From the NCBI RefSeq assembly GCF_021728535.1, contig NZ_JAKKDU010000014.1:1-33552 (forward strand): 33,552 bases of DNA, read 5' to 3'. This DNA comes from Wocania arenilitoris (GTDB taxonomy: Bacteria; Bacteroidota; Bacteroidia; Flavobacteriales; Flavobacteriaceae). This document shows positions 417-21,728 of this stretch, in pieces (the stretch's first letter is position 1; each line of letters opens with the position of its first letter). Both the position numbers and the translations under genes were made by a program. The notes beneath the pieces are model-generated. The model made no database searches, was not told where the DNA came from, and worked only from the letters and a program-made list of their open reading frames with translations.

Positions 417-1772
417 TTATCTAATTAATTCCTTAACCTCTCCAAAATCCAATCCACCATAGTTACCAGAGCTCATTAAAAGCAATGCTTTATTATCAAA
501 GTTTTGTGAGAATAAAAAGGCTTTAAAATCGTCTGGATTGGTATAAATAATTAAATCGTCGCGTTGGAATGCATTGGCAATTTGTTCATGAGAAATGGCA
601 TCTAGTTTTTTAATTTCAACGGCATGTGGTGAATAGAAAACCACGGCAACATCGGCAGCATTTAAAGCTCCTTTATATTCTTTTAAAAACTCAACATTTA
701 AGCTACTATAAGTGTGTAATTCTAAACAAGCAACTACGGTTCTGTTAGCATATTGCTCTTTTACGGCATTGGTAGTAGCTTTAACTTTACTTGGTGAGTG
801 TGCAAAATCTTTAAAGGCTACACTATTATTACTTTCAGCTATTTTTTCAAGTCGTTTACTGGCACCTTTAAATGTTGAAATGGCTTCGTAAAAATCGTCC
901 TCATCAATACCCATGTGTTGGCATATCCATTTAGCTCCTGCTAAATTATTAAGATTGTGTTTTCCAAAAACTTCGATGGGTAAATCGCCCTCTGAAGTTT
1001 CTAATAAAGTTTGTCCGTTTTCAACTGTATATTCTGGAGTTTTATATGGTAACTTTCTAATGGTGTTTTTCGATGCTTCAACAATACGCTTCACTTCAGT
1101 ATCTTCTTCATTGTAATTAATGCTTCCGCCACTAACTATAGAATTAACAAATATGCTGAACTGTTCTAAGTAGTTTTCATAGGTAGGAAACACATTAATA
1201 TGATCCCACGCAATACCACTTAACAAAGCAATATTGGGTTTGTATAAATGAAATTTTGGTCGTCTATCTATTGGCGAACTTAAATACTCATCGCCTTCTA
1301 AAACTATAAAATCGTTGTCTTCTGTAAGTTTTACCATGACATCGAAACCTTCTAACTGTGCACCAACCATATAATCAACATCTCTATCATGATAATGCAT
1401 TACGTGCAATATCATGGATGTTATAGTTGTTTTTCCGTGGCTTCCGCCAATTACAACACGGGTTTTATGTTTAGACTGCTCGTATAAAAACTCTGGATAG
1501 CTATATATTTTTAAACCTAATTCTTGAGCTTTTAACAACTCTGGATTATTGGCTTTGGCATGCATGCCTAAAACAATGGCATCTAAATTAGGGGTGATTT
1601 TTTCTGTAAACCAACCAAAGGTGCTGGGTAGTAATCCTTTAGTTTTTAATCTTGATTTTGAAGGCTCGAAAATAACATCATCGCTTCCTGTTACGTTATA
1701 ACCTTTATTGTGCAAAGCTATGGCTAAATTGTGCATTGCAGAACCGCCAATAGCTATAAAATGTACATTCAT
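417..1772 (-). CDS. mpl: UDP-N-acetylmuramate:L-alanyl-gamma-D-glutamyl-meso-diaminopimelate ligase
   Basis: This Mur ligase reattaches the recycled tripeptide L-Ala-gamma-D-Glu-meso-DAP to UDP-MurNAc in the cytoplasm, using ATP. The N-terminal Rossmann part starts VHFIAIGGSAMHNLA. The ATP loop GGSHGKTT is at residues 109-116, the Mg-binding acidic motif EGDEY at 159-163, WDHINVFPTY at 189-198, GKHNLNNLAGA at 270-280 and FKGASKRLE at 301-309. GGSHGKTT, WDHI and FKGASKRLE favour Mpl over MurC. The length of 451 residues is normal. It lies 33 nt after the TolC-type gene on the same strand, so it may be co-transcribed, but its role is unrelated to export. Confidence 0.93.
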   Translation of the reverse strand: MNVHFIAIGGSAMHNLAIALHNKGYNVTGSDDVIFEPSKSRLKTKGLLPSTFGWFTEKITPNLDAIVLGMHAKANNPELLKAQELGLKIYSYPEFLYEQSKHKTRVVIGGSHGKTTITSMILHVMHYHDRDVDYMVGAQLEGFDVMVKLTEDNDFIVLEGDEYLSSPIDRRPKFHLYKPNIALLSGIAWDHINVFPTYENYLEQFSIFVNSIVSGGSINYNEEDTEVKRIVEASKNTIRKLPYKTPEYTVENGQTLLETSEGDLPIEVFGKHNLNNLAGAKWICQHMGIDEDDFYEAISTFKGASKRLEKIAESNNSVAFKDFAHSPSKVKATTNAVKEQYANRTVVACLELHTYSSLNVEFLKEYKGALNAADVAVVFYSPHAVEIKKLDAISHEQIANAFQRDDLIIYTNPDDFKAFLFSQNFDNKALLLMSSGNYGGLDFGEVKELIR

Positions 1773-1805: not shown

Positions 1806-3209
1806 TTAAAATTCAGGAATTACGGCAAGACTATTAAAAAGTTTTGCCTTTGTACTAAAGAATTTATATTGTACTTCTATAGCCTTTAATTGCCCGTCAA
1901 TTAGTTTAGACTCTCTAGAATTAACTAAAAATAATGAGCTTTCTCCAAGCGTAAATTTACGCTCTTCTGCCTCTAACATTTTAGAATAATCAGTTACCAT
2001 TTGACTTACTAACTCATTTTGTGACACATAAGAATCAAGTTCTTGCCGCAAAGCATTTATTTTGTTTTGAAGATTAACTCTAGTGGCATCAATTTCGAAC
2101 TCGGTATCTTGTGTTTTAATTTTTGCTAGTCTTAAATCGCCTCTTTCTTTTCTTAAAAAAAGAGGAAAAACAATGTTTAGACCACCTTTGTATTGTGCTG
2201 TATTAAATGATTTTGCTATATCTGGGTTTTCTGTTAAAAAGTTATATTCAACATCAACTTTAGGTAAAAGTTTATTGGTTTTTAGTCTTCTGTCTAATTC
2301 TAAACTTTGAAGTTTATAGTCTAATGAAATCATTTTTGGATGTGTAGCAACAGTCAACTCATCTTCTTCTAATTGGTTAATATTGAATGTAGCATCAATA
2401 ATTGGATTTGAATTTACATCTGGAACTACATTAGATTGTAATTCTACTGGCACATTGTTTTCTAACCATAAAAATGTAGAAAGCTCAAAGGCTGCTTTCA
2501 TGAATTTAACTTTAGATTGCTCTAAGCTTAATTTACGTTGATTAATAGCAATGCGTGCTTCTACAACATCAATTTTAGCTCTTTCGCCAACCTCGGCACC
2601 GCGTTCTATACCTCTAAACCTTAACTCTGCATTAACCAAGAAATTTTCAAATAATTTTAACTCATTGTAAGCTTGTAGCCATTTAAAATAACTCATTGAG
2701 GCGTCATAAAGGATGTTGTTTACAAAAATATCTCTATCTGCTTTTGCTTGTTCTCTAAATAATCTGGCTTGCTTTAACGAGGCCATACGGTCGTTTATTA
2801 ATAAGCCTTGGACAACAGGTACTTTTACACCTGCAGAGAATAAACCATCTTGTGGAACAAAACTTTCAGGATTTAAAAAATTGCCAGTGTTTTCTTCAAA
2901 TGAAGCTTTAAGCTCTATACCAAACCACGTTGGAATTTTAAACATGCCATTAAGCTTGTCAAAATATTCAGTCCCTTTGAATTTCTTTCGATCATAATCA
3001 ACCTCAAATTTTGGGTCAAAGGCACCACGAGATTTCATTAATTTTGCTTGACTTTCATCAATAACTAATTGCGCTTGTTTTACAATAGGATGAAATTTTT
3101 TAACATAACCTAAATACTCATCAAAGCGTAAAACATCTGATGGATTTTCAGTTTGAGAAAATGCCAATAAGCTGAAACCTATAAGTAATATGGTAAGTTT
3201 TCGTTTCAT
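1806..3209 (-). CDS. TolC-family outer-membrane efflux protein
   Basis: This 467-residue protein has a Sec signal (MKRKLTILLIGFSLLAFS, cleavage near residue 18). Two long alpha-helical halves rich in alternating polar and hydrophobic residues and coiled-coil segments (for example RIAINQRKLSLEQSKVKF) are typical of the outer-membrane efflux protein family. It would form the trimeric channel across the outer membrane for the adjacent HlyD-type adaptor and ABC exporter. Its ATG follows the adaptor stop codon with no spacer, which indicates translational coupling. The substrate cannot be told from sequence. Confidence 0.88.
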   Translation of the reverse strand: MKRKLTILLIGFSLLAFSQTENPSDVLRFDEYLGYVKKFHPIVKQAQLVIDESQAKLMKSRGAFDPKFEVDYDRKKFKGTEYFDKLNGMFKIPTWFGIELKASFEENTGNFLNPESFVPQDGLFSAGVKVPVVQGLLINDRMASLKQARLFREQAKADRDIFVNNILYDASMSYFKWLQAYNELKLFENFLVNAELRFRGIERGAEVGERAKIDVVEARIAINQRKLSLEQSKVKFMKAAFELSTFLWLENNVPVELQSNVVPDVNSNPIIDATFNINQLEEDELTVATHPKMISLDYKLQSLELDRRLKTNKLLPKVDVEYNFLTENPDIAKSFNTAQYKGGLNIVFPLFLRKERGDLRLAKIKTQDTEFEIDATRVNLQNKINALRQELDSYVSQNELVSQMVTDYSKMLEAEERKFTLGESSLFLVNSRESKLIDGQLKAIEVQYKFFSTKAKLFNSLAVIPEF

Positions 3210-4568
3210 TTAATGACCTTTTTTAGTTTTAGTTTTTTTTGTGTCTTCTGGTTGATAATAGTTTGGAGGGAAACTGTTTAGCTGTCGCCAAAGCTCGAAC
3301 CAAATAGGGACATCATCTAGTAATGCCATTGTAAATGCTCCTGAACCTGCACGAACATCTTTTGGCCAAGGATGCTCATCTTTGTCTGGAGCTAAAAGCA
3401 CTCTAAATTTTCCGTTTGGGCTTATAAAACGTTCAACAGCAACTACCTCTGCCCCATAAGTGCCGTAAGATACATTTGGCCATCCGCTAAAAACAATTGC
3501 AGGCCATCCATCAAATTGTACACGTACTTTTTCTCCTTTATGAATTAATGGTAAATCAATAGGCTCAACAAAAGTTTCTACAGCAAGATCGATTTCTGCT
3601 GGTACCAATCCAACTAACTCTTCGCCTTCTTTAAATGTTACGCCAACTCCTCCTTTTAAAGCTTTATTTATATAACCATCATAAGGTGCTGTAATAAAGA
3701 GAAGGCTATTTCTTATTTTATAATTTGAATACTGGTTCTCTAATTTTTGCACTTGGGCCTCAGAATCAAACTGACTTGATTGTGCCGAAAATTTATCACT
3801 TTCAGCTTTAGATATTTTATCAGAATATTCCGCTCTAATTCGAGACAACTCAATCTTAGCATTAATGACTTGATTTCTGCTAGCCAACAATTTTGTTTCT
3901 TGAGAAATGCGTTTAGCTTGAGTTTCTTGTAATTTTACTCTAGCATCTTCTACATTCTTTAGTGCTGCAAAGCCTTCTTTATAGAGTGTGTCGGCACGAT
4001 TATATTTAGTCTGTGCAATTTTTAAATTTGTTATTGCTGCCTCTAGGTTAATACTATCTGCTTCAACCTTAAGTTTTGACTGCAATAGTTTGTTTTGTGC
4101 TTGTTTTAATTTTAGAATGCGCTCATTTTGTAAAGCACTAATTCTAACCCCAGTTGCTTTAACTTTTTGCTTATAAGATTTAACAGAAAAGGCTTTTGCA
4201 TTCCGTTGTTGCGCAGTGCGCTCAACCAAATTAGGGTCGAAGTATTCACTTTTTACTTCAGAGATTTGCATTATAGTATCTCCTTTTCTTACTCTATCTC
4301 CTTCTTTTACAAACCACTTTTCAATACGACCAGGAATTTGTGATTGAATTGTTTGTGGTCTTTGGTCTGGTGTAAGCGTAGTTACATTACCACTACCTGT
4401 AATATTTTGTGTCCATGGTAGAAACAGAATAATAAAAACTATAACTGCAAAACCTGCTAAAAATCGGTTAAAATACTTGTAATAATTTTTGTTTAACACA
4501 TGCTTGCTAGATTTAAATTGAGTTAAATCTACAGTCTTATTTAATGGGTTTTTAGATATATTAAGCAT
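3210..4568 (-). CDS. HlyD-family periplasmic adaptor (membrane fusion protein)
   Basis: This 452-residue protein has a cytoplasmic N-terminal stretch, one transmembrane segment at about residues 37-51, a split lipoyl/biotinyl-like domain (first half about 73-102, with IPGRIEKWFVKEGDRVRKGDTI), a long coiled-coil hairpin from about 115 to 290, and a beta-barrel region after about 310. This is the layout of HlyD/AcrA adaptors, which link an inner-membrane transporter to a TolC channel. It sits 11 nt downstream of the ABC gene and abuts the TolC-type gene. The cytoplasmic leader and single TM fit type I secretion or ABC export systems better than RND adaptors, which are usually lipoproteins. Confidence 0.9.
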   Translation of the reverse strand: MLNISKNPLNKTVDLTQFKSSKHVLNKNYYKYFNRFLAGFAVIVFIILFLPWTQNITGSGNVTTLTPDQRPQTIQSQIPGRIEKWFVKEGDRVRKGDTIMQISEVKSEYFDPNLVERTAQQRNAKAFSVKSYKQKVKATGVRISALQNERILKLKQAQNKLLQSKLKVEADSINLEAAITNLKIAQTKYNRADTLYKEGFAALKNVEDARVKLQETQAKRISQETKLLASRNQVINAKIELSRIRAEYSDKISKAESDKFSAQSSQFDSEAQVQKLENQYSNYKIRNSLLFITAPYDGYINKALKGGVGVTFKEGEELVGLVPAEIDLAVETFVEPIDLPLIHKGEKVRVQFDGWPAIVFSGWPNVSYGTYGAEVVAVERFISPNGKFRVLLAPDKDEHPWPKDVRAGSGAFTMALLDDVPIWFELWRQLNSFPPNYYQPEDTKKTKTKKGH

Positions 4569-4579
4569 AACTATGTGTT

Positions 4580-6241
4580 TTAAATAATTTTACCATTACT
4601 TAGGTTTATAACATCTGTACATTCATTTGCCCAATCGTTATTAAAGCTAGCAACTATTAGTGCCCATGGGTTTTCTGGAGCAGTTAAATTTTTAATAATT
4701 CTTTTAGCTTCATCTGCCTCGAAATGCTCTAATGGCTCTTCTAGAATTAGTAATTTTGGGTTTTTAAGAATAGCTCTTGCCAAAATAATTTTCTTTGCTA
4801 CTGTAAAGGATATTTGTTTGCCTTCAGGGTAGATAATAGTTTCTAAACCTTTATCGGTCTCTTTTAAAAATGACTTTAAGCCAACCATATCTATAACATT
4901 ATTTATTTTATCATTACTTATTCCGTTGCTACTTAAAGTAAGATTTTCTCTAATGCTACCTTCAAAAGGTGATTCTTCAGCTAATGACAATCCTAAACAA
5001 GAACGATAACTATTAAGTTGTATATTCTGTAAAGAGTCATCATTAACAAATATTTTTCCCTTGGTTGGCTCTATAATACCAGATATAATTCTAAGTAAGC
5101 TAGATTTACCAGAACCACTAGGTCCTTTTACTAAAACTCTACTTTTACTATGTAATGATAAAGATATTTTGTCTAGAACTGGATCAATTCTGTTTGGCAC
5201 CTCATAACTAACTTTTTTTAATTCTATGTTGAATTCTTCTGGCGAATCAATAATAATTCCATTTTGGTTTTCTATATTTTTATCTACAACTTGTCCCATT
5301 TTTTCCAGTGAGGTGAGCACGTCATAAAAAGACTCTAAACCTAAAATTAGTTTTTCAACTGAAGCAATAACTAAAAGAATGATAATTTCTGCAGCCACGA
5401 ACTGACCAATGTTCATTTCTTGATTTAATACCAAAAGACCACCAATAATAAGTAATCCGGCTGTAACAACAACTTTAAAAGCTATCATTTGAATAAATTG
5501 TAGTATTAAAATACTAAAATGACTTTCTCTTGCTACCAAATAACCATCTACTAGTTTGTCGTTTTTTTCTAGTGCAAGCGATGTTTTGCCCGAAACCTTA
5601 AAGCTAGTTATAGCTCTGGCAACTTCTTGAATCCAGTGGGCAACCATGTATTTCTTCTTAGATTCTTTTAAACTGGTTTGCATGCCTTTTTGAATTGTAA
5701 ACTTAAATACTATGTAAATGAGTCCAATTAAAATAAAACCAAAAGCTATAAAAAAAGGATGATAAAAAGACAGTAATATTAATGCAAATATAATTTGTAA
5801 AGCTGCTGCTGGTACATCTATTAATAATTTTGCAAGACCTTTTTGAACGGTTAATACATCAAAAAAACGGTTTGCTAATTCTGGCGGGTAATAGTTACGC
5901 AATTCGTTCATTTTAATTTTAGGAAAACGATACGTAAACTCAAAAGAAGCCCGCATAAAAATACGCTGTTGCACAGTTTCTATAATACGCAACTGCATTA
6001 ACTGTAGTATGCCTACAAAAACAACGCCTAAGGTAACTAAGGTAACCAGTACAATCCAAGATGTGCTTACTTGTGCGCCTTGTATTAAATTTATAATTGC
6101 TTGTATGCCTAATGGCAGGGTTAGACTGATAAGTCCTGAAAATACTGCATAATAGATTACCTGTAACAAATCCTTTTTTTCTAATCTTAGTATGCCAACA
6201 AAACGTTGCCAAGGTGTTAGAAGTGGTTTATTTTGATTCAT
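4580..6241 (-). CDS. ABC transporter, fused permease and degenerate ATPase
   Basis: This 553-residue half-transporter has an ABC exporter membrane domain (about residues 25-310, five to six hydrophobic segments) followed by a nucleotide-binding domain. Walker A is clear (GPSGSGKSS, 373-381), as are the ENL region after the Q-loop and a Walker-B-like LLILEE (497-502). The other motifs are eroded. The signature LSGGQ is replaced around 475-484 by QISFTVAKK, the Q-loop glutamine is missing near 421, and the switch histidine is replaced in VASFN (530-534). There is no N-terminal C39 peptidase domain. It overlaps the tetR gene by 14 nt and leads into hlyD and tolC-type genes. The likely role is the inner-membrane component of a one-step exporter. 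Confidence 0.87.
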   Translation of the reverse strand: MNQNKPLLTPWQRFVGILRLEKKDLLQVIYYAVFSGLISLTLPLGIQAIINLIQGAQVSTSWIVLVTLVTLGVVFVGILQLMQLRIIETVQQRIFMRASFEFTYRFPKIKMNELRNYYPPELANRFFDVLTVQKGLAKLLIDVPAAALQIIFALILLSFYHPFFIAFGFILIGLIYIVFKFTIQKGMQTSLKESKKKYMVAHWIQEVARAITSFKVSGKTSLALEKNDKLVDGYLVARESHFSILILQFIQMIAFKVVVTAGLLIIGGLLVLNQEMNIGQFVAAEIIILLVIASVEKLILGLESFYDVLTSLEKMGQVVDKNIENQNGIIIDSPEEFNIELKKVSYEVPNRIDPVLDKISLSLHSKSRVLVKGPSGSGKSSLLRIISGIIEPTKGKIFVNDDSLQNIQLNSYRSCLGLSLAEESPFEGSIRENLTLSSNGISNDKINNVIDMVGLKSFLKETDKGLETIIYPEGKQISFTVAKKIILARAILKNPKLLILEEPLEHFEADEAKRIIKNLTAPENPWALIVASFNNDWANECTDVINLSNGKII

Positions 6242-7038: not shown

Positions 7039-7992
7039 TCAGAGTATAGAAATATTAACTTTTTCCTCTTGGAATACTTTAATTTTTGGTAAGTTAGTAA
7101 TGGCTTTGTCTATCCATTTTAAAGCCTCTTCTTTATTGTTTTTGTGCTTATAAATTTGGGCTAATCTATAATACGCCCAAGCCAATGGCACACCATCTTT
7201 GGCAGAATGATTTGCTATGTAGGTTTGTAAACATTGTTTGCCCTTTTCTAATTGTGTATTATATTCGGCGGCCACTTTACCTATTTGATAATGCAGGGCA
7301 TTGCGCTGGTGTATTTTTTGTGCAGCTTCTATATTTTGAATCGCTTTTTGAGGTTGTTTTTGATTTTCGTAAAGATTAGTTAGTTTATTAAAACAGTTTA
7401 AAGATCCGCCTAAATCAATAGCCATTTTATAATATTTTTCAGCTAATTCGGGTTTGTTGTCATATTCATGAATATAACCTTTAGCTAAATAACCATCAAC
7501 TTGTGAGAGTGCTTCTAACTCGTTTGCAAATTTTAAAGATGTGTTTTTGCTGCCTCCAATAATTCCTGGTAATTGCATATACAGTTCAACTAAAGCCCAT
7601 CGTGTTTCAATGTGATTTTTATCTAATTCTGCTGCTTTTAAAAAAGCTTTTTTTACATCGCCAATAATACCTAATGCTTTTAATTTATTTACAGAAAGCG
7701 CTTTCATGCCTAAAGCTCCTCCATATTTATAGTGGTAGTTTGCTTTATTTTGTTGTGCTTTTACTAATTTTTTATATTGGACTACGGCATCATCCCATTT
7801 TTTTTGATATGAAAGAGCGTCACCGAGAAACTCTAATGCTCTTAAGTTATTAGGATGATTTTTTAGAAAATCAATTACAGTTTTTTCAGCTTTTATAAAT
7901 TGCTTCTTTTTAAGAAGAGAATCAATAGTATTCAAATCAGATTGACCAAATACAAATATTGGAAAAAGTAGTAGGAGCAAAAATTTATTCAT
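7039..7992 (-). CDS. Secreted or periplasmic TPR-repeat protein
   Basis: This 317-residue protein has an N-terminal Sec signal (MNKFLLLLLFPIFVFGQ). The rest is a run of helix-turn-helix tetratricopeptide units. Examples are an early repeat with ALEFLGDALSYQKKWDDAV, a middle one with AKGYIHEYDNKPELAEKYY, and a late one with AYYRLAQIYKHKNNKEEAL. TPR arrays mediate protein-protein contacts, and no enzymatic domain is visible. It is transcribed divergently from the alpha-2-macroglobulin gene 141 nt away, so shared control is possible but not shown. The partner is unknown. Confidence 0.82.
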   Translation of the reverse strand: MNKFLLLLLFPIFVFGQSDLNTIDSLLKKKQFIKAEKTVIDFLKNHPNNLRALEFLGDALSYQKKWDDAVVQYKKLVKAQQNKANYHYKYGGALGMKALSVNKLKALGIIGDVKKAFLKAAELDKNHIETRWALVELYMQLPGIIGGSKNTSLKFANELEALSQVDGYLAKGYIHEYDNKPELAEKYYKMAIDLGGSLNCFNKLTNLYENQKQPQKAIQNIEAAQKIHQRNALHYQIGKVAAEYNTQLEKGKQCLQTYIANHSAKDGVPLAWAYYRLAQIYKHKNNKEEALKWIDKAITNLPKIKVFQEEKVNISIL

Positions 7993-8133: not shown

Positions 8134-11100
8134 ATGAAGCACACATTTTTTATATTAATGATTATACTTTTTTCAAATTTAACAATAGCTCAAAATCCAG
8201 ATTATAAAACGTTATGGGAGAAAGTTGAAAAATTGGAAGTTGAAGGTTTGCCAAAATCGGCATTAAAAATTGTTGAAGACATTTCAGCCAAAGCTAAAAA
8301 AGACAATAATCGTCCCCAGTTTATAAAAACGATGCTTTTTAAAAGCAAGTTTGCTTTGGTTTTAGAAGAAGATGCACAACTAAACATAATTAATAATTTT
8401 AAAAGTGAAATTGAAAAGAGCTCATTTCCAACAAAAAACATACTAGAAAATATACTAGCTAATTTGTATTGGCAATACTTCAATCAAAACAGATGGCAAT
8501 TTTATAATAGAACCAAAACCGAATCTAAAGTTGATACTGTTGATTTTAGAACTTGGGATTTACAGACCCTTTTTAACGAAATCCATGTGCATTATCAAAA
8601 GTCTTTAAAGAACGGATTAATGCTTCAATTAGAATCATTAACTAATTACAACGCGCTTTTAAACGAGCAAAAAGACTCTAAAATTTACAGACCAACGTTG
8701 TTCGATTTTTTAAGTCATAATGCTTTAGAATTTTATAAAACCGACGAGACACATATTACAAAACCTGCGTATAAATTTGAAATTGATAATTTTGAATTAT
8801 TAGGTGATGCAAAAATATTTTCAAGCTTAAAATTAGCATCAAAAGATTCAATCTCATTACAACTAAACGCATTAAAAATTTATCAAGATTTAATTCGTTT
8901 TCATTTGAATAATAAATCACCTTTAGCATTAACTGATGTTAACATAAATCGCTTAAAATTTGTAAATCAGCATGCTACTTTTAATGATAAACAAAGTATT
9001 TTATTAAATGCCTTAAAAACAGAAAGAGAGCAGTTAAAAACTCACGAAATTTCTGGGTTGTATGATTATGAGATAGCCTCTGTTTACTATCAACAAAGTT
9101 CAGACTATATACCAAAAAGTAAAGAAGAAAACCGCTGGAAATTAAAAGAAGCTATTGCTATTTGCGATGATGTTATTGCTAAATTCCCAAAAAGTAAGGG
9201 TGCTGAAAAATGTAAAATTTTAAAGCAACAAATAGAACAACAATCATTACAAATAACAACAGAAAATTTTCTACCAATTCTTGAGAACGCACGTTTGTTA
9301 GTGCGTTATAAAAACTTAAATAATCTTAAATTTAAGGTTTTTAAAATCTCAAGAAATCAATTAGAAAAATTTAATGAAACGTATAGAAAAGAAGAGCAAC
9401 TAGCATTTATAAAAAAGCTTAAACCTGTAACTCAATGGAATAATACCTTGCGTCATGAAAACGATTATCAAACACATACTACCGAGATTTTATTACCAAA
9501 ATTTAATAATGGTAATTACCTAATTTATGCGTCACCAGAAAATAATGAGGATACCTTTGCTTTTAACACCATTCAAGTTACCAATTTAGCATTAGTTGAA
9601 AGTGATAATACAGACTATAAAACCTTTCAAATTATTAATAGGAACAACGGTAATCCAATTGTTAATGTCAAAGTAGAATCAAGTTATTTTAAGAATAATA
9701 ATCGTAATAGACAAACTGAGGCCTATACCACAGACTCCAACGGGTTTATTAAAATCAAAAAGTCGAAGAAAGTTTACAGAAATATAAATTTAAAAGTAAA
9801 ACATGGTAATGATGTCGCTTATTTTGGAGATTATTATGTTAATAGGTTTTACAAACGAGGTCAAGAAAAAGTAACCTATAAATCTTTTTTATTTACCGAT
9901 AGAAGCATTTACAGACCAGGACAAACTGTTTATTTTAAAGGTATTGCAATAAAAAATAACCCTAATAATAGCAGTGTAAGCAGATTTGAAGTTTTAGAAA
10001 ACGAAGAGGTCTATGCAATTCTGTATAATGTAAACGGAGAAGAGTTAAAAGTATTAAACTTACAAGCAAATGAATTTGGTTCGGTTTCAGGTAAATTCAT
10101 ATTGCCTAATTCTGGTTTAAACGGTCAATATTATATTGAATTGGGTTTAAGGTCTCGTAATAATATGAGAAGTCATACGTATTTCTCCGTTGAAGAATAC
10201 AAGCGCCCAAAATTCGAAACCAAATTTAATCCAATAACCAAAACCTATAAAATTAACGATTCGGTAACTATAAAGGGAAATGCTTTAGCTTACGCAGGGA
10301 GCAATATTACCGATGCCAAAGTGGTTTATCGAGTGCATAGAAAAGTACAATATCCGCACTGGTATTTTTGGTATCGCCCGTGGTTTAATAGCGAACCACA
10401 AGAAATTACACATGGTGAAAGTATAACTAACGATAAAGGTGAATTTGAAATTACATTTAAAGCATTACCAGACCAGAGCGTTGATAAAAGTAGCTTGCCT
10501 ATTTTTAAATACGAAGTCACTGCCGATGTTATCGATTTAAATGGCGAAACACGAAGCGCAACTACGGTAGTAAATGTTGGTTACCATGCTTTAACAGCAA
10601 ATATGTCTATTGCTAATCTTCTAGATAAAACTAAAAAAACGCATGCTATTGAAATTGACACCAAAAACTTAAATGGTGAGTTTGTCCCAGCAAAAGGCGT
10701 TGTAAAAATGTACAAGCTAATATCGCCACAATCTCCTTTGAGAGAGCGACCTTGGGCAGCCCCAGACTATCAAGATATTGCCGAATACGATTTTAAAAAA
10801 TTATTTCCACACGATGCCTATAATAATGAGCAGAACCCTAATAATTGGGAGAAAGGTAAGCTTGTTTTTGTATCGTCTTTTAATACTGAAAACAACACAA
10901 AACTCAATTTAGGCAAAACTAAAAAATGGCAATCTGGAAAATATCTTATCACTTTAGAAACCAAAGATAAATTTGGACAAATTGTAAAAGATGAAATAAG
11001 AACAACGCTTTATAGTGATAAAGATGAAACACTTGCAGACCACCAACTGTTTAGCATTACAAGTGATAAATCTGAATATAATGCTGGAGATACAGCGCTA

Positions 11101-14100
11101 ATAACTTTAGCCTCAGCAGCAAACAACTTAAATGTTACAGTGACTATAAAAAAGCGTAACCAGGATTTAAAAACGCAAATTATTCAATTAAATAACAACA
11201 AAAAAACTATTAGTATTCCTATAACTGATGGAGATATTGGTGGCTTTTCAGTTAATTATAGTTTTGCGGCTTTTAATAGTTTTAAATCGGGTGGTTTAAA
11301 TATAGCGGTGCCATATCCTAAAACCGATTTAGAGATTGAAACCCTAACCTTTAGAGATAAATTACAACCTGGAACTGATGAAACTTGGAGCTTTAAAATT
11401 AAAGGACCAAAAGGCGATAAAGTGAGTGCTGAGTTATTAGCGAGTATGTACGATGCGAGTTTAGACCAATTTAAACCACATACTTGGAATTTTAACCCGA
11501 TTAATAAGCCATTGTATAATTCGTATTATAATAGTAATGCAAGACAGAGTTTTGGTACGCGAAATTTTAGAGTTTACAATGACAGATTTCGTGCATATTA
11601 CCCAGATCAAAATTATGACCAATGGAATTGGTTTGGGTTTAGTTTTAACAATAAGCGTTGGGTTTATAATAGCTATTTAAATAGATTGAAAAGTAAATAT
11701 GAAGATAGAAATACAAGTAGCTATGATAAATCTATTAAAACAGGTTTAGTATCTGGGACGATTTATGACACAAATAGCAACTCCTTACCAGGTGTTAACA
11801 TCATTATAAAAGGGAGTACTAGTGGTACTCAAACAGATTTTGATGGTAAATTTTTAATTAAGGCTGATAAAAATGACATTTTGGTATTTAGCTATGTTGG
11901 ATTTGTCACTCAAGAAATTGAAGTTATAAAGAATAATCTTTTTTCTATCTACCTATCTGAGGATAGTGCTAGCTTAGATGAAGTTGTTGGTTATGGTACT
12001 CAAAAAAGAAAGGCAATAACAGCATCAGCTTTATCTGTTAGCTCAGATCAACTAAATGGAATAGTAGAATTAGAAGAAGTCGAAGATGCTATTTCCCTCT
12101 CTGAAATGAAGATTCGTGGTTCAACTACATTAAATGATAGCAACAAGCCATTATATATTGTAGATGGAGCTATTATAGATGGAGAATTTCAATTAGACGA
12201 TAACGTATTATCCATAAAAATTCTTAAAGACGCATCGGCTACAGCTATTTATGGTGTTAAAGGAGCTAATGGTGTTATTTTAATTACAACTAAAAAAGGG
12301 TTAACTGCACTATCACAAATTAAAGTTAGAAAAAACCTTCAAGAAACAGCCTTTTTCTTTCCGCAGTTAAAAACAGATGAAGACGGTAATGTAAGTTTCA
12401 GTTTTACAACACCAGAAGCTTTAACCCAATGGAAATTACAATTGTTATCACACACTAAAACTTTAGAAAGTGCAACGAAAACCTTAACAACGGTTACGCA
12501 AAAAGAATTGATGGTAATACCAAATGCACCTCGTTTTTTACGCGAAGGCGATAACATAACCATTAGCACTAAAATTGTAAACTTAACCGATAAGCAACTT
12601 TCGGGGCAAGCCGCTTTAATATTAACAGATGCCATTTCTAGAAAAGATATTACCGCAAACTTAATCAGTTCTTCCCCTTCGGGGAAGTTAGATGGGGCTT
12701 TTATAGTAGGCGCCAAAGACAACACCCAAGTATCATGGAATTTATCCATTCCAGATAATGTACAAGCAGTTCAATATAAAGTGATTGCTAAATCTGGAGA
12801 TTTTAGTGATGGCGAACAAAATGCGTTACCAGTTTTAAGTAACCGCATGTTAGTTACCGAAACATTACCGATGTGGATTAGAAGCAATCAGACTAAAACA
12901 TTCACACTTGAAAAACTAAAAATGGTGCCTGAAGCTCTCGAAGGCACAACTTTAAAACACCATAAATTAACTTTAGAAATGACTTCTAATCCAGCGTGGT
13001 ATGCGGTACAAGCTTTACCATATTTAATGGAATATCCTTATGAGTGTAATGAACAAACCTTTTCGCGTTATTACGCCAATGCTTTGGCAAGTCATATCGC
13101 CAATTCTAACCCTAGAATTCAGGAGGTTTTTAATCAATGGAGAAACTCAGATGCATTACTTTCTAACTTGGAAAAGAACGAAGAATTAAAGTCTATTTTA
13201 ATTCAAGAAACACCTTGGTTACGTGATGCACAAAGCGAATCGGAGCAGAAAAAACGAATTGCTTTATTATTCGATTTAAATAAAATGAATAACGAATTGC
13301 AATCTGCAAAACGTAAACTGGAACAAAATCAAATGAATTCTGGCGCATGGTCTTGGTTTAAAGGTGGTCGTGAAAATCGATATATCACGCAACATATAAT
13401 TACTGGTTTTGGTCATCTAAAAAAACTATCAGTCACGTCAGGCTCTGACGAAGAATCTCAAATGATTCAAAAAGCCATTAAGTATTTAGATGCTCAATTT
13501 GTAAAAGAATACAACGACATTAGAAAATACGATTCAAAAGTCGATTTAAAGAAAGATCATTTAAGCTACACACAATTGCATTATTTGTATATGCGAAGCT
13601 TTTATCCGGAGGTAAAAAAATCTGATAAAGTTGAAGAAATTACTAAATATTATCATACGCAGATTCAAAAATACTGGTTAAAACGTTCATTATACGCCAA
13701 GGGATTAATGGCATTGATTGTTGATAGAATGGGAGATAGAAAGACTTCAACTAAAATTTTAAAGTCGTTAAAAGAAAATAGCATAACCTCTGAAGAATTG
13801 GGTATGTATTGGAAAGCTAATACGAATTCTTGGTATTGGTATCAAGTACCTATTGAAACACAAGCCTTATTAATTGAAGCTTTTTCAGAAATTGAAAATA
13901 ACACCGAAACCATCGATAATCTTAAAATTTGGTTACTTAAAAACAAACAAACAAACCGCTGGAAAACTACCAAGGCAACTACCGATGCTGTTTATGCTTT
14001 ATTACTACAAGGTAGTGATTGGTTGAGTGTAACCGGTATGGTTGATGTGGTTTTAGGTGGACAAAAAATAGAACCTTCAAAGCTAGAAGATGTAAAAGTT

Positions 14101-14679
14101 GAAGCGGGGACAGGCTACTTTAAAACCTCATGGAATACATCTGAAATTAAACCAGAAATGGCTGATGTGCAAATTACCAAAAAAGGAAATGGCATTGCTT
14201 GGGGAAGTTTATATTGGCAATATTTTGAAGATTTAGATAAAATCACATCTGCAGAAACACCTTTAAAACTGAAGAAAAAACTATTCTTAAAAACCAATAC
14301 AGATACTGGTGAAGAAATTTCAGAAATCACAAAAAGTACAAAAGTAAAAGTGGGTGATTTAGTTCGTGTTCGTATAGAATTACGTAGTGATAGAGCTATG
14401 GAATTTGTACACATGAAAGATATGCGAGCAGCAGGTTTAGAGCCTGTAAATGTTATTTCTAAATATAAATGGCAAGATGGGTTGGGTTATTACGAAAGTA
14501 CAAAAGATGCGAGTACAAACTTCTTTTTTGATTATTTACCAAAAGGCGTTTACATTTTTGAATACGATTTAAGAGTGAATAATGCAGGCAATATGAGTAA
14601 TGGTATTACCACCATACAAAGTATGTATGCCCCAGAATTTAGTAGCCACAGTAAAGGTACTAGAATTAATATTGAATAA
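8134..14679 (+). CDS. Alpha-2-macroglobulin family protein with embedded SusC-like plug
   Basis: This 2181-residue exported protein has a signal peptide (MKHTFFILMIILFSNLTIA). There is no lipobox cysteine, unlike many bacterial alpha-2-macroglobulins that are lipoproteins. A helical region runs to about 370, followed by macroglobulin-like beta domains, an MG2 motif TDRSIYRPGQ (588-597) and VEEYKRPKFE near 685-694. Residues 1204-1389 are a carboxypeptidase-regulatory-like domain plus a TonB-receptor plug. The A2M core then resumes with ETAFFFPQL (1404-1412). The thioester motif C-N-E-Q is intact at 1638-1641, followed by the helical thioester domain and a C-terminal beta domain. Such proteins trap proteases by covalent capture after cleavage of a bait region. 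The usual neighbour pbpC is absent. A hairpin terminator follows. Confidence 0.93.
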   Translation: MKHTFFILMIILFSNLTIAQNPDYKTLWEKVEKLEVEGLPKSALKIVEDISAKAKKDNNRPQFIKTMLFKSKFALVLEEDAQLNIINNFKSEIEKSSFPTKNILENILANLYWQYFNQNRWQFYNRTKTESKVDTVDFRTWDLQTLFNEIHVHYQKSLKNGLMLQLESLTNYNALLNEQKDSKIYRPTLFDFLSHNALEFYKTDETHITKPAYKFEIDNFELLGDAKIFSSLKLASKDSISLQLNALKIYQDLIRFHLNNKSPLALTDVNINRLKFVNQHATFNDKQSILLNALKTEREQLKTHEISGLYDYEIASVYYQQSSDYIPKSKEENRWKLKEAIAICDDVIAKFPKSKGAEKCKILKQQIEQQSLQITTENFLPILENARLLVRYKNLNNLKFKVFKISRNQLEKFNETYRKEEQLAFIKKLKPVTQWNNTLRHENDYQTHTTEILLPKFNNGNYLIYASPENNEDTFAFNTIQVTNLALVESDNTDYKTFQIINRNNGNPIVNVKVESSYFKNNNRNRQTEAYTTDSNGFIKIKKSKKVYRNINLKVKHGNDVAYFGDYYVNRFYKRGQEKVTYKSFLFTDRSIYRPGQTVYFKGIAIKNNPNNSSVSRFEVLENEEVYAILYNVNGEELKVLNLQANEFGSVSGKFILPNSGLNGQYYIELGLRSRNNMRSHTYFSVEEYKRPKFETKFNPITKTYKINDSVTIKGNALAYAGSNITDAKVVYRVHRKVQYPHWYFWYRPWFNSEPQEITHGESITNDKGEFEITFKALPDQSVDKSSLPIFKYEVTADVIDLNGETRSATTVVNVGYHALTANMSIANLLDKTKKTHAIEIDTKNLNGEFVPAKGVVKMYKLISPQSPLRERPWAAPDYQDIAEYDFKKLFPHDAYNNEQNPNNWEKGKLVFVSSFNTENNTKLNLGKTKKWQSGKYLITLETKDKFGQIVKDEIRTTLYSDKDETLADHQLFSITSDKSEYNAGDTALITLASAANNLNVTVTIKKRNQDLKTQIIQLNNNKKTISIPITDGDIGGFSVNYSFAAFNSFKSGGLNIAVPYPKTDLEIETLTFRDKLQPGTDETWSFKIKGPKGDKVSAELLASMYDASLDQFKPHTWNFNPINKPLYNSYYNSNARQSFGTRNFRVYNDRFRAYYPDQNYDQWNWFGFSFNNKRWVYNSYLNRLKSKYEDRNTSSYDKSIKTGLVSGTIYDTNSNSLPGVNIIIKGSTSGTQTDFDGKFLIKADKNDILVFSYVGFVTQEIEVIKNNLFSIYLSEDSASLDEVVGYGTQKRKAITASALSVSSDQLNGIVELEEVEDAISLSEMKIRGSTTLNDSNKPLYIVDGAIIDGEFQLDDNVLSIKILKDASATAIYGVKGANGVILITTKKGLTALSQIKVRKNLQETAFFFPQLKTDEDGNVSFSFTTPEALTQWKLQLLSHTKTLESATKTLTTVTQKELMVIPNAPRFLREGDNITISTKIVNLTDKQLSGQAALILTDAISRKDITANLISSSPSGKLDGAFIVGAKDNTQVSWNLSIPDNVQAVQYKVIAKSGDFSDGEQNALPVLSNRMLVTETLPMWIRSNQTKTFTLEKLKMVPEALEGTTLKHHKLTLEMTSNPAWYAVQALPYLMEYPYECNEQTFSRYYANALASHIANSNPRIQEVFNQWRNSDALLSNLEKNEELKSILIQETPWLRDAQSESEQKKRIALLFDLNKMNNELQSAKRKLEQNQMNSGAWSWFKGGRENRYITQHIITGFGHLKKLSVTSGSDEESQMIQKAIKYLDAQFVKEYNDIRKYDSKVDLKKDHLSYTQLHYLYMRSFYPEVKKSDKVEEITKYYHTQIQKYWLKRSLYAKGLMALIVDRMGDRKTSTKILKSLKENSITSEELGMYWKANTNSWYWYQVPIETQALLIEAFSEIENNTETIDNLKIWLLKNKQTNRWKTTKATTDAVYALLLQGSDWLSVTGMVDVVLGGQKIEPSKLEDVKVEAGTGYFKTSWNTSEIKPEMADVQITKKGNGIAWGSLYWQYFEDLDKITSAETPLKLKKKLFLKTNTDTGEEISEITKSTKVKVGDLVRVRIELRSDRAMEFVHMKDMRAAGLEPVNVISKYKWQDGLGYYESTKDASTNFFFDYLPKGVYIFEYDLRVNNAGNMSNGITTIQSMYAPEFSSHSKGTRINIE
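11743..12300 (+). other. SusC-like regulatory domain plus TonB plug inserted in the A2M protein
   Basis: In frame within the alpha-2-macroglobulin gene, residues 1204-1281 read as the CarboxypepD_reg-like N-terminal domain of SusC receptors (VSGTIYD, LPGVNIIIKG, TDFDGKF, FSYVGF). Residues 1282-1389 read as a plug domain, with DEVVGYGTQKR, IRGSTTLN, PLYIVDG, LKDASATAIYG and GANGVILITTKKG. The stretch normally reading LQGRVAGVxV is shortened and altered to an acidic segment. No beta-barrel follows, because the frame returns directly to the A2M fold. There is no stop or frameshift at either junction. Confidence 0.88.
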
Positions 14680-16151: not shown

Positions 16152-16658
16152 TTGATAAAGTTAATACCCCCAAATATTGCTTTACTTACAATGTTATTTG
16201 TCTATACCATAGTAAATTCGTGTGCTTCAAAACAAAAGAGTATTCAAGATGCTACTGCTGAAGAATCAAACCCTAGACTCCTTTTTTTAAATTATAAAAT
16301 GTCTGAAGACGATAATGGAAATAAAACCATTAAGTTTATTAATAAGATAATAACAGAAGGAAAATTAAAACAGAATAGTTATACTAATGAAAGTGTTTAT
16401 GGCGATTTAATATGCAATCAACTTGATAAAAAATCGAATGTATTACAAAGTATTACCATAAAAAATCCGCTTGTAAAAAACTTTGAATTTGTTAATGATT
16501 TAAAACAGTTTGAAAGAAAAAATGTTGAATTAAAAACAGCCGAATTTTCATTAAAACTAAAGTTAGAGCCTTACACTAAATACATTACTATTAATGAAAT
16601 TACCAAGAATAAAACTGAAACTAAACCTCTTGTAAAAACTATAATTAATCAGCTATGA
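16152..16658 (+). CDS. Small lipoprotein, unknown function
   Basis: This 168-residue protein probably starts at TTG. The only later ATG (16191) would leave a very short signal lacking a basic residue, while the TTG start gives MIKLIPPNIALLTMLFVY followed by the lipobox-like VNSC, with the acyl cysteine at residue 24. There is no in-frame ATG between the upstream stop at 16095 and this site. The mature part is hydrophilic with many Lys and Glu and a predicted beta-strand region. No family is recognised. It overlaps the M64 peptidase gene by ATGA, so the two are translationally coupled and probably work together at the cell envelope. Confidence 0.75.
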   Translation: MIKLIPPNIALLTMLFVYTIVNSCASKQKSIQDATAEESNPRLLFLNYKMSEDDNGNKTIKFINKIITEGKLKQNSYTNESVYGDLICNQLDKKSNVLQSITIKNPLVKNFEFVNDLKQFERKNVELKTAEFSLKLKLEPYTKYITINEITKNKTETKPLVKTIINQL

Positions 16659-18046
16659 AGCATTGTTTTATGCACATAATATGCTTATTAAATATAATGT
16701 TTTTTAACGCTCAAACATTTGATTTAGAAGTTATTAAGCAATCTGGTGATGATGATAAGCGAATAAACTTAGTCATTTTAAGCGATGGTTATCAAGCATC
16801 AGAGTTTTCAAAACTTATAACCGATGCTGCAAGTTTTTCGACAGAAATGTTTACACAATCTCCGTTTAAAGAATATACCAACTATTTTAATGTGTATATT
16901 ATAAAAGTCCCGTCCAACGAAAGTGGTACAGATCATCCTGCTACGGCAACCGATGTTACAGAACCTGTTTTTCCTGCCGCAACTAAAGACACTTATTTTA
17001 ATACCTCTTTCGATACTTCTGGTTTTCATAGGTTGTTGTATACTTACAGCTCTTCTTTAGTTTATAATGTATTGGCTAATAATTTTCCAGAATACGACCA
17101 ACCTATTATTTTAGTTAATTCATCTGAATATGGTGGTGCTGGTGGACCATATGCTGTTTCATCAACTGGAGCAAGCGCTAATGAAATTGTTATTCACGAG
17201 TTGGGGCACTCGCTTTTTAATTTGAGAGACGAGTACTATCCAGGAGATGGTCGTCTCTTTGAAGCTATAAATGCCACTCAAGAAACGAATCCAACATTAG
17301 TAAAATGGAAAAACTGGATGGGAATTGATGCCATTGATATTTATCCATACGGAACTTCTGGTGAAGCTGCTACTTGGAATAGACCTCATCAAAGTTGTAA
17401 AATGCGTTATTTAGGTGTAGACTTTTGTGCAGTTTGTACTGAAGGGATAGTTGAAAAAATCCATAGTTTAGTACCTCCAATCGATTCGTATTTACCAATA
17501 TCTAATGCGGTAACTGCAACTGTTTATCCAATTGATTTTCAATTAAATTTAATAAAACCGATTCCCAATACTTTAAAAAGTACATGGACATTAAATGCTT
17601 CAAATTTTGCAAATGACGTCGATGATATTTCAATTATTGACACTGATTTGAATATAGGAACTAATAATTTAGATGTTGTTGTACATGATGACTCGCCTTT
17701 TTTAAAAGTTGATAACCATAATTCGGTTCACGTTTACACGGTTTCTTGGACGATAACAAAATCTGCTTTAGGAATTGATGAAATTATTAGTGAAGAAAAT
17801 GACTTTAATATTAGCCTATTTCCAAACCCTTCAAATAATATTTTAAGCATAAAAGTTGAAAGTGAAAATGCTGTAAACTTAAAAGTAGACATTTTAAGTT
17901 TAGATGGAAAACAGGTAAAATCAACTAAAATTTCTAACTACGAAAGCAATGAAATTCATATTAGTCGATTGAGTAATGGTGTATATTTAGCCAATATTTA
18001 CTCTAATAATATGCTTTTAACAAGTAAGCGTTTTGTGAAGAATTAA
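16655..18046 (+). CDS. M64-family zinc metallopeptidase with T9SS sorting domain
   Basis: This 463-residue secreted protease has a signal peptide (MKHCFMHIICLLNIMFFNAQ). The N-terminal part, with INLVILSDGYQASE at about 37-50, is typical of M64 (IgA protease type) proteins. The zinc site HELGHSLFNLRDEY is at 181-194 (HExxH with downstream DEY). The last roughly 78 residues, starting LFPNPSNN near 388 and ending in a Lys-rich tail, form a type A C-terminal sorting domain, so export across the outer membrane by the type IX system and surface attachment or release are expected. Substrate specificity is unknown, and the IgA protease label is only a family name. Confidence 0.9.
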   Translation: MKHCFMHIICLLNIMFFNAQTFDLEVIKQSGDDDKRINLVILSDGYQASEFSKLITDAASFSTEMFTQSPFKEYTNYFNVYIIKVPSNESGTDHPATATDVTEPVFPAATKDTYFNTSFDTSGFHRLLYTYSSSLVYNVLANNFPEYDQPIILVNSSEYGGAGGPYAVSSTGASANEIVIHELGHSLFNLRDEYYPGDGRLFEAINATQETNPTLVKWKNWMGIDAIDIYPYGTSGEAATWNRPHQSCKMRYLGVDFCAVCTEGIVEKIHSLVPPIDSYLPISNAVTATVYPIDFQLNLIKPIPNTLKSTWTLNASNFANDVDDISIIDTDLNIGTNNLDVVVHDDSPFLKVDNHNSVHVYTVSWTITKSALGIDEIISEENDFNISLFPNPSNNILSIKVESENAVNLKVDILSLDGKQVKSTKISNYESNEIHISRLSNGVYLANIYSNNMLLTSKRFVKN

Positions 18047-20523: not shown

Positions 20524-21633
20524 CTATAATTTATCAATCACTCCACTTAGGCGTACTGTAATGTCTTCAATACTGCCCACGCCATCAACACCAAAATATT
20601 TGTGTTGTGCAGAATAATAGTCTTTTAAAATAGCTGTTTTATTATAGTATTCTGTAATTCGGTTTCTAATAATAGACTCATCTGCATCGTCTGCTCTTCC
20701 GCTGGTTTCTCCTCTTTTTAATAAACGCTTTACTAAAACCTCGTCATCAACTTCTAAAGCTACCATTGCATTTATTTGAGAATCTTTGGTATCCATTAAT
20801 TTATCTAAAGCTTCGGCTTGTGCATCTGTTCTTGGAAATCCATCAAAAATAAAACCATTAGCATCGGCATTTTTTTCAACTTCAGCTTCCAACATATCTA
20901 TAGTAACTTGGTCTGGTACTAATTCGCCTTTGTCCATGTAAGATTTTGCTAGCATACCTAAAGCGGTTTCATTTTTTATGTTAAATCTAAAAACATCGCC
21001 AGTTGAGATATGCACTAAATTATATTTCTCTTTTAAAAATTCTGCTTGCGTTCCTTTTCCTGCTCCTGGAGGGCCAAATAGTACTAAATTTGTCATGTGT
21101 TGTGTTTCTTTTATTTGATATATTTCTGGTATGTCTCTTCCTAATCCATCATAATCAAGCCCATAGCCCACTATAAATTTATTAGGTATTTCTATACCAA
21201 CATAATGTAGTTTAAAATCTTTTTTATAAGCTTCTGGTTTGTAAAATAATGTCGCAATTTTAAGCGATTTTACATTTTCATTTTTAAAAATGCGGTGTAC
21301 TTCAGCTAGGGTGTTTCCAGAGTCTATAATATCTTCTAAAACAACTACCGTTCGCCCAGATAAATCTTGAGTTAAACCAATTAAACGTTGAATATCCTCA
21401 CTAGATTTAACACCTTCGTAGGATGCTAATTTTATAAATGTAACCTCGCATGGTTTTGGGTACTTTTTTACAAAATCGCTAACTACCATAAACGAACCGT
21501 TTAAAATACCAACAAATACAGGTGTTTCGTCTCCAAGATCGTTAGATATTTGGTTAACTAAACGTGTAATAGCTGCATCAATTTCTTCAGCCGAAATAAA
21601 TGGTTTGAAATATTTATCGTGTAGTTTAATCAC
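20524..21633 (-). CDS. Hypoxanthine phosphoribosyltransferase-adenylate kinase fusion
   Basis: One frame encodes two enzymes. The GTG at 21633 is chosen as start (369 residues, MIKLHDKYF) because a TATCTTTG -7 box lies only 23 nt upstream. A longer frame to 21708 would begin before that promoter. Residues 1-175 are an Hpt-type purine phosphoribosyltransferase with the PRPP loop LEDIIDSGNT (99-108). From Met180 (MTNLVLFGPPGAGKGT) a full adenylate kinase follows, with its P-loop at 187-195, FDGFPRT at 263-269 and a short zinc-free LID near 307-316. The linker is only about five residues. Both enzymes feed adenine and guanine nucleotide pools. From memory this fusion is usual in Flavobacteriia. 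Confidence 0.92.
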   Translation of the reverse strand: MIKLHDKYFKPFISAEEIDAAITRLVNQISNDLGDETPVFVGILNGSFMVVSDFVKKYPKPCEVTFIKLASYEGVKSSEDIQRLIGLTQDLSGRTVVVLEDIIDSGNTLAEVHRIFKNENVKSLKIATLFYKPEAYKKDFKLHYVGIEIPNKFIVGYGLDYDGLGRDIPEIYQIKETQHMTNLVLFGPPGAGKGTQAEFLKEKYNLVHISTGDVFRFNIKNETALGMLAKSYMDKGELVPDQVTIDMLEAEVEKNADANGFIFDGFPRTDAQAEALDKLMDTKDSQINAMVALEVDDEVLVKRLLKRGETSGRADDADESIIRNRITEYYNKTAILKDYYSAQHKYFGVDGVGSIEDITVRLSGVIDKL

Positions 21634-21655
21634 CGTTATTTTATTTTGAAAGATG

Positions 21656-21663
21656 CAAAGATA
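21656..21663 (-). promoter_or_regulatory. -7 box for hpt-adk
   Basis: TATCTTTG on the minus strand matches TAnnTTTG, 23 nt upstream of the GTG at 21633. It fixes the start of the fusion gene. No clear -33 element is present. Confidence 0.45.
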
Positions 21664-21728
21664 ATCAATAGAATACCGATTACCGATTTTTTGATTTACG
21701 ATTTGCAAAGTAATTTGATATTAAAATG

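Follow-up and report, generated by a model that had tools for sequence, protein, structure and literature searches.

The window, a stretch of 33,552 nucleotides from Wocania arenilitoris (contig NZ_JAKKDU010000014.1), carries an A2M-family (alpha-2-macroglobulin) gene as a single open reading frame, interrupted by neither a stop nor a frameshift. The Pfam domains of its product follow the order that is usual for the class (MG2, A2M_BRD, A2M/MG7 and bMG10; Table 1), and its sequence identifies it as a type I bacterial A2M. Residues 1-20 resemble a signal peptide and no lipobox is seen in the protein, both judged by eye; the protein is probably exported to the cell envelope. Compared with the type I A2Ms of E. 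coli (YfhM/ECAM) and Salmonella, what sets it apart is its bait, about 186 residues of which form a SusC N-terminal module.

Near the A2M gene lie a Mur-ligase-like gene (417-1772, minus strand) and a gene for a TPR protein (7039-7992, minus strand), whose BLAST matches stand beside A2M in 55 and 50 of the best 80 loci, respectively. An M64 peptidase bearing a sorting tail for type IX secretion (16655-18046, plus strand) is encoded close to A2M, with matches beside 17 of the best 80 loci. Also present are an exporter set of TolC-, HlyD- and ABC-type genes in a row (1806-6241, minus strand) and a phosphoribosyltransferase-adenylate kinase fusion in one frame (20524-21708, minus strand). A simple transglycosylase pattern, as in PBP1C, whose gene lies beside the A2M gene in E. 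coli, was not found in the window or in the best 80 of at least 565 loci.

Table 1. Features of the A2M gene in the window, with residue numbers of the encoded protein.
Feature	Residues	Positions	Strand	Evidence
A2M-family gene	2181 aa	8134..14679	+	single ORF
MG2 domain	584-686	9883..10191	+	PF01835, E 7.4e-18
A2M bait-region domain (A2M_BRD)	974-1091	11053..11406	+	PF07703, E 6.2e-5
Upstream bait linker, predicted mostly disordered	1095-1191	11416..11706	+	pLDDT <50 in 8/10 ten-residue blocks (model residues 401-500)
NTE domain (CarboxypepD_reg-like), predicted folded	1202-1283	11737..11982	+	
SusC/RagA N-terminal module in bait position	1204-1389	11743..12300	+	TIGR04056, E 2.4e-56
TonB box and acidic segment, predicted disordered	1280-1333	11971..12132	+	pLDDT 25-43
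Shortened TonB-box stretch LDEVVGYGTQKR	1281-1292	11974..12009	+	
Half-plug region with SusC signature	1340-1400	12151..12333	+	TIGR04057; pLDDT 60-74
A2M/MG7 domain	1405-1492	12346..12609	+	PF00207, E 3.9e-17
Thioester motif CNEQ	1638-1641	13045..13056	+	
Bacterial MG10 domain (bMG10)	2045-2168	14266..14637	+	PF17973, E 7.4e-33

A SusC-type module ahead of MG7

The original prediction had described the N-terminal part of a SusC, in frame and with no barrel, at residues 1204-1389 of an A2M with an intact CxEQ thioester. Both points are confirmed, the thioester being present as CNEQ. The NCBIfam model for SusC/RagA, TIGR04056, matches residues 1206-1403 through its positions 3-220 (of 981), and residues 1360-1387 match the SusC signature TIGR04057. 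The TIGR04056 score of 191.7 bits stays below the cut-off of 368.25 bits, and the 22-strand barrel is absent. A phmmer search against PDB chains matched SusC homologues and RagA over residues 1206-1401. The insert also has the NTE domain (PF13715), and Pfam places CarbopepD_reg_2 at residues 1206-1285, between the end of the BRD (1091) and the start of MG7 (1405).

The Plug family PF07715 has no Pfam match in the window A2M at E 0.01, and the plug is therefore taken as partial or degenerate. Its TonB box reads LDEVVGYG, whereas relatives commonly carry LDEVVVVGYG, which is two residues longer. For comparison, the accessible part of one account of SusC gives the Ton box of Bt1763 as DEVVVTG, places the SusC Ton box facing the periplasm and equates the NTE with PF13715 (PMC7782687). 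The module shares with SusC/RagA transporters (TIGR04056) the NTE, the TonB-box region and the plug end with the SusC signature; it differs from them in lacking the barrel, in its partial plug and shortened TonB box, and in lying inside another protein.

That the insert occupies the bait position, as had been proposed, is upheld by the Pfam order, by a structure model and by alignment with relatives. The model covers residues 691-1640 at a mean pLDDT of 68.8. The model and its structural matches have the A2M fold, with the bait ahead of MG7. In the bait position the model places a folded NTE, a disordered TonB-box/acidic stretch and a low-confidence half-plug. Complement C3-C5 are among its structural matches. 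Complement C3/C5 carry an anaphylatoxin domain at the place equivalent to the bait, and C3/C4/C5 resemble the window A2M in having an extra domain inserted there; the window protein differs in being bacterial, in the domain concerned and in its donor, an outer-membrane protein.

Pieces of outer-membrane proteins across baits

A protein query matched 38 of 40 relatives, many of the matches being susC-sized ORFs found through the insert alone. With MG7 alone as the query, matches were obtained in 156 of 299 family genomes, and an MG7 profile gave matches in 119 of 395 phylum genomes. Full modules stand at the same site in L002, L003 and L012, and three congeners carry short baits. Because other genomes show this architecture in the same position, a single odd fusion is rejected; the suggestion that similar fusions may exist elsewhere is borne out, and what had been noted as one fusion turns out to be a class of baits.

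We read 179 A2M loci and obtained 177 baits, 171 of them unique (118 from the family and 53 from other families); L016, without MG7, and L077, without the upstream part, gave none. The phylum matches that were read comprised 60 rows above 100 bits (52 from other families and 8 from the window's family). Loci L211-L230 were picked for long ORFs, and 17 of these 20 are reported apart, three having baits already present. The best 80 of at least 565 confirmed loci were named, and module frequency among them may be inflated because the query contained the insert.

Profiles applied to the unique family baits at E<0.01 matched SusC in 83/118, LptD in 14/118 and GldJ in 5/118. Any of the three was found in 95/118, and two profiles in 7. 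Control windows from the same proteins gave four matches for SusC, one for LptD and none for GldJ among 1627. Without the 17 length-chosen baits the numbers are 66 for SusC, 14 for LptD, 5 for GldJ and 78/101 for any. All five GldJ matches fall at profile positions 364-470, with a best control of E 0.098; among the LptD baits the weakest, L069, has E 0.0065, barely ahead of the 0.0073 of the top control window. In other families SusC matched 12/53 baits, and LptD and GldJ 0/53. By eye, four of these twelve (L129, L132, L135 and L144) appear to have a general CarboxypepD-type domain only; L129, L132 and L135 are A2Ms of a distant family whose baits seem to lack a TonB box. A total of 23/118 family and 41/53 outside baits were matched by none of the three profiles.

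An NCBIfam scan, which took 93 of the 118 family baits, gave SusC in 50, GldJ in 1 and BamP in 23 at E 0.01, the BamP matches being taken as NTE similarity. At the same threshold, SusC was found in 8/52 outside baits. Matches to unrelated families were single and weak (NikL, E 0.0005; a radical SAM family, 0.0026; OXA, 0.0098).

To follow single pieces, we used six short SusC profiles made from susC genes only (33 of 51 susC loci, 18 having failed a simple pattern), with 1673 equal-length windows elsewhere in the same A2Ms as controls. At least one SusC piece scored above every control window in 76/101 family, 17/17 length-chosen family and 17/53 other-family baits, and at least two did so in 53, 17 and 6 baits, respectively; one of the 1673 control windows had two pieces over the 99.5% line. 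The order in real SusC is NTE, TonB box, LxGRVAGV, IRIRG, VDG and signature. Among the baits, 27 have the TonB box ahead of LxGRVAGV and 22 have it behind. The stricter whole-module profile found at least two separate SusC segments in 14 baits, 5 of them out of order.

Coverage along SusC is highest at the TonB box, which is reached in 78/95 SusC-matching baits and in 31/48 of those without the NTE. In 17 short baits of one clade, not filtered by detection, mean pairwise identity is 0.70 in the TonB-box block, 0.42 in the LxGRVAGV block and 0.31 in the remainder of the bait, with flanks at 0.85-0.86. Plug parts without a detected TonB box occur in L059, L065, L097 and L221. In a separate observation, no CxEQ was found in the family f5 A2Ms L111-L113 and L115-L117, whose baits still have TonB-box-like or LxGRVAGV-like pieces.

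Turnover and origin of the baits

In the sequences compared, pieces of outer-membrane proteins make up fast-changing collages in the A2M baits of Flavobacteriaceae. Two Winogradskyella A2Ms (L065 and L083) have flanks that are 93.4% and 93.0% identical and baits that differ, a SusC plug in L065 and a TonB box in L083. Two Maribacter A2Ms with flanks at 95-96% carry a TonB-box-like and an LxGRVAGV-like bait at the same spot. Within the window's genus, the window has the SusC module, L005 a piece of LptD, and L004 and L006 SusC motifs whose order is reversed. Mapped on a tree of 171 A2M cores, the NTE label, carried by 47 rows, requires a minimum of 22 changes, a raw count that pools gains with losses.

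Own-genome searches were made for seven baits (L117, L121, L123, L038, L065, L088 and L005). In the L065 genome itself, the bait of L065 matches a SusC-type receptor with 57% identity over 115 aa (E 1.7e-36); in the genome of its sister the figure is 44% (E 2.0e-22). The bait of L117 resembles a TSP3-repeat OmpA of its own genome (63% over 38 aa, E 1.3e-12), and that of L121 a receptor with NTE and plug, of low SusC score (43% over 45 query residues, E 1.4e-6). The L038 bait is similar to many SusC-sized ORFs and, at E 7e-4, to a 572-aa ORF homologous to another genome's GldJ (NCBIfam GldJ, E 9.5e-282). For L088 the match is a 930-aa ORF (54% over 41 aa, E 8.7e-8), with weaker SusC-sized ORFs as well. 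For L005 it is a 929-aa ORF (57% over 43 aa, E 1.1e-8), with no further own-genome match besides the bait itself. Both of these source ORFs, together with a third ORF, are LptD (PF19838, E 1e-170 to 1e-172). The baits of L122 and L123, from another family, look GldJ-like by eye and have GldJ profile values of E 0.77 and 0.014. A GldJ/GldK-like reading of L123 was dropped on that profile value and on its own-genome search, which gave no match.

The part of LptD that the baits match lies directly ahead of the LptD_2 domain or where that domain begins. It probably faces the periplasm, as do the parts of GldJ and OmpA that recur in baits. When the 171 baits were compared with 381 arbitrary open frames beside A2M genes, a sample far smaller than a proteome, 66 baits matched at E<0.01, all on 8 frames, each of which carries SusC/NTE-like sequence, one being a susC; the other 373 frames had no bait match at this threshold.

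When 22 A2M modules were placed on one tree with 33 susC genes, two changes were required for the A2M rows, and a constraint holding the A2M NTE-plug modules in a single clade was not rejected (AU p 0.657). The tree lends no support to separate acquisitions of the module by different members of the family. A recent copy from an own susC was likewise unsupported for the window. Its module reaches at best 47-49% identity to own-genome susC proteins and 50% to those of congeners, so that recent copying is not seen. In DNA, the best own-genome match to the insert, itself aside, is 82% over 74 bp and the next 68% over 240 bp. The long form can be explained by a single old capture in the family that was later eroded and exchanged; additional events are required for the shuffled short forms and for the pieces of LptD, GldJ and OmpA.

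Candidate functions of the baits

From the position, content and turnover of the baits and from the thioester motif, all of which can be read in the sequences, we infer a decoy role. According to this explanation, to which we give about an even chance of being right, the bait of a protease trap serves as a self-mimicking decoy and has been replaced in the window by the N-terminal module of a SusC importer. Flexible segments that face the periplasm in the cell's own outer-membrane proteins would be copied in the bait, so that a protease capable of attacking such proteins would also cut the bait, spring the trap and become bound through the thioester. For the window protein, the cleavage site would lie within residues 1280-1333, the disordered stretch with the TonB box and the acidic segment, which is probably the likeliest cleavable part; the original suggestion of a cleavable segment near residues 1290-1330 agrees with the structure model. 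The NTE and half-plug would be inherited packaging. Recombination with the genes of outer-membrane proteins would supply the turnover, and selection would maintain it.

The accessible part of the report on MagD, a type II A2M of P. aeruginosa, describes it as periplasmic and cut in the bait; MagD with a TEV site in the bait was cut by, and trapped, TEV protease, a design used earlier for the Salmonella A2M (PMC5764988), which indicates that bait sequence can set the target. Unlike the window A2M, MagD has no thioester, and a bait made of envelope-protein pieces is not mentioned for it in that part of the report (PMC5764988). The shuffled order of pieces (27 versus 22) favours a decoy over a fold, since it points to linear content as what matters. 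The earlier suggestion that the plug acts as bait is plausible, and it is strengthened by the short SusC, LptD and GldJ strings of relatives; these are too short or too shuffled for a plug. Further points in favour of a decoy are the excess of profile matches over control windows, the same-genome matches, the restriction of matches among the 381 frames to SusC/NTE-like sequence, the conserved TonB-box block, the different baits between near-identical flanks and the CxEQ found in 103/117 A2Ms with a module. Against a decoy stand the family and outside baits that none of the three profiles matches, the four outside SusC matches that resemble a CarboxypepD-type domain only, the empty own-genome search with L123, the lack of a closer match to the window's module in its own genome and the single capture that was not rejected. 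CxEQ is also found in 47/54 A2Ms without a module; among the 14/117 module-bearing A2Ms in which it was not found, L011 was possibly scored so merely because its locus is cut. Moreover, a folded NTE is unusual for a bait.

The leading alternative, unlikely in our view, is a neutral scar: a permissive bait loop would take any insert, the numerous susC genes would land there most and decay, and the content would matter only in being cleavable. Such a history agrees with the fast turnover (at least 22 changes for an NTE label in 47/171 rows), the 41 Plug matches in the window's genome, the degenerate plug and shortened TonB box, and the single capture that the AU test did not reject (p 0.657). 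It accounts poorly, however, for the contribution of LptD and GldJ, which are single-copy genes, for the matching of SusC/NTE-like frames only among the 381, for a TonB-box block that is conserved where its neighbours are not, and for the reversed piece order.

Because the own-genome sources are outer-membrane-type proteins of the same cell, the pieces might instead attract the cell's own envelope quality-control proteases, in which case A2M would restrain self-proteolysis and not invaders. Self proteases are also recognised by eukaryotic A2Ms, according to the accessible part of the MagD report (PMC5764988). We consider this account improbable, as fast bait turnover would be more in line with an arms race than with a self target that stays constant.

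Recruitment of a TonB- or SusD-like partner, or anchoring at the outer membrane, had been offered in the original prediction and found no support as a general explanation, given LptD and GldJ baits without an evident TonB role and the four baits whose plug parts lack a detected TonB box; for the window protein itself such a role may still apply. The same two observations weigh against direct coupling, in which the TonB box would bind TonB and the trap would be tethered, or mechanically sprung, by the energised TonB system. Although the TonB box is both the most represented SusC piece (78/95) and the best conserved block, that of the window is two residues short, and we regard coupling as quite improbable.

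By analogy with the anaphylatoxin of C3/C5, the NTE-plug module could be a folded unit cut free as a signal, consistent with the modelled NTE between disordered stretches and with complement C3-C5 among the structural matches; the presence of the NTE in only 47/171 baits and the two cuts needed for release make this very improbable. Finally, an assembly artefact joining a susC to the A2M gene, the error raised at the outset, has nothing found in its favour and is so unlikely as to be practically dismissed, since independent genomes have this architecture in the same position and no close own-genome copy of the insert was found.

The decoy explanation can be given a wider form, which we advance tentatively and place somewhat short of an even chance: the bait would be a renewable "self-portrait" of periplasmic peptides from the cell's most important outer-membrane proteins (SusC, LptD, GldJ and OmpA), recombined so as to trap any protease evolved against them. 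In the literature searched, which lies mostly outside subscription journals, no paper joined A2M baits with SusC, TonB, LptD or GldJ. If true, the wider form would amount to an immune principle of the bacterial envelope that works by decoy and whose recognition element evolves fast and is sourced from the genome. The baits would also document a gene region repeatedly assembled from pieces of other genes with a clear common theme. Baits that copy the outer-membrane proteins of the same cell point to what A2M guards, and the question becomes a testable one, namely which protease cuts both the bait and SusC, LptD or GldJ.
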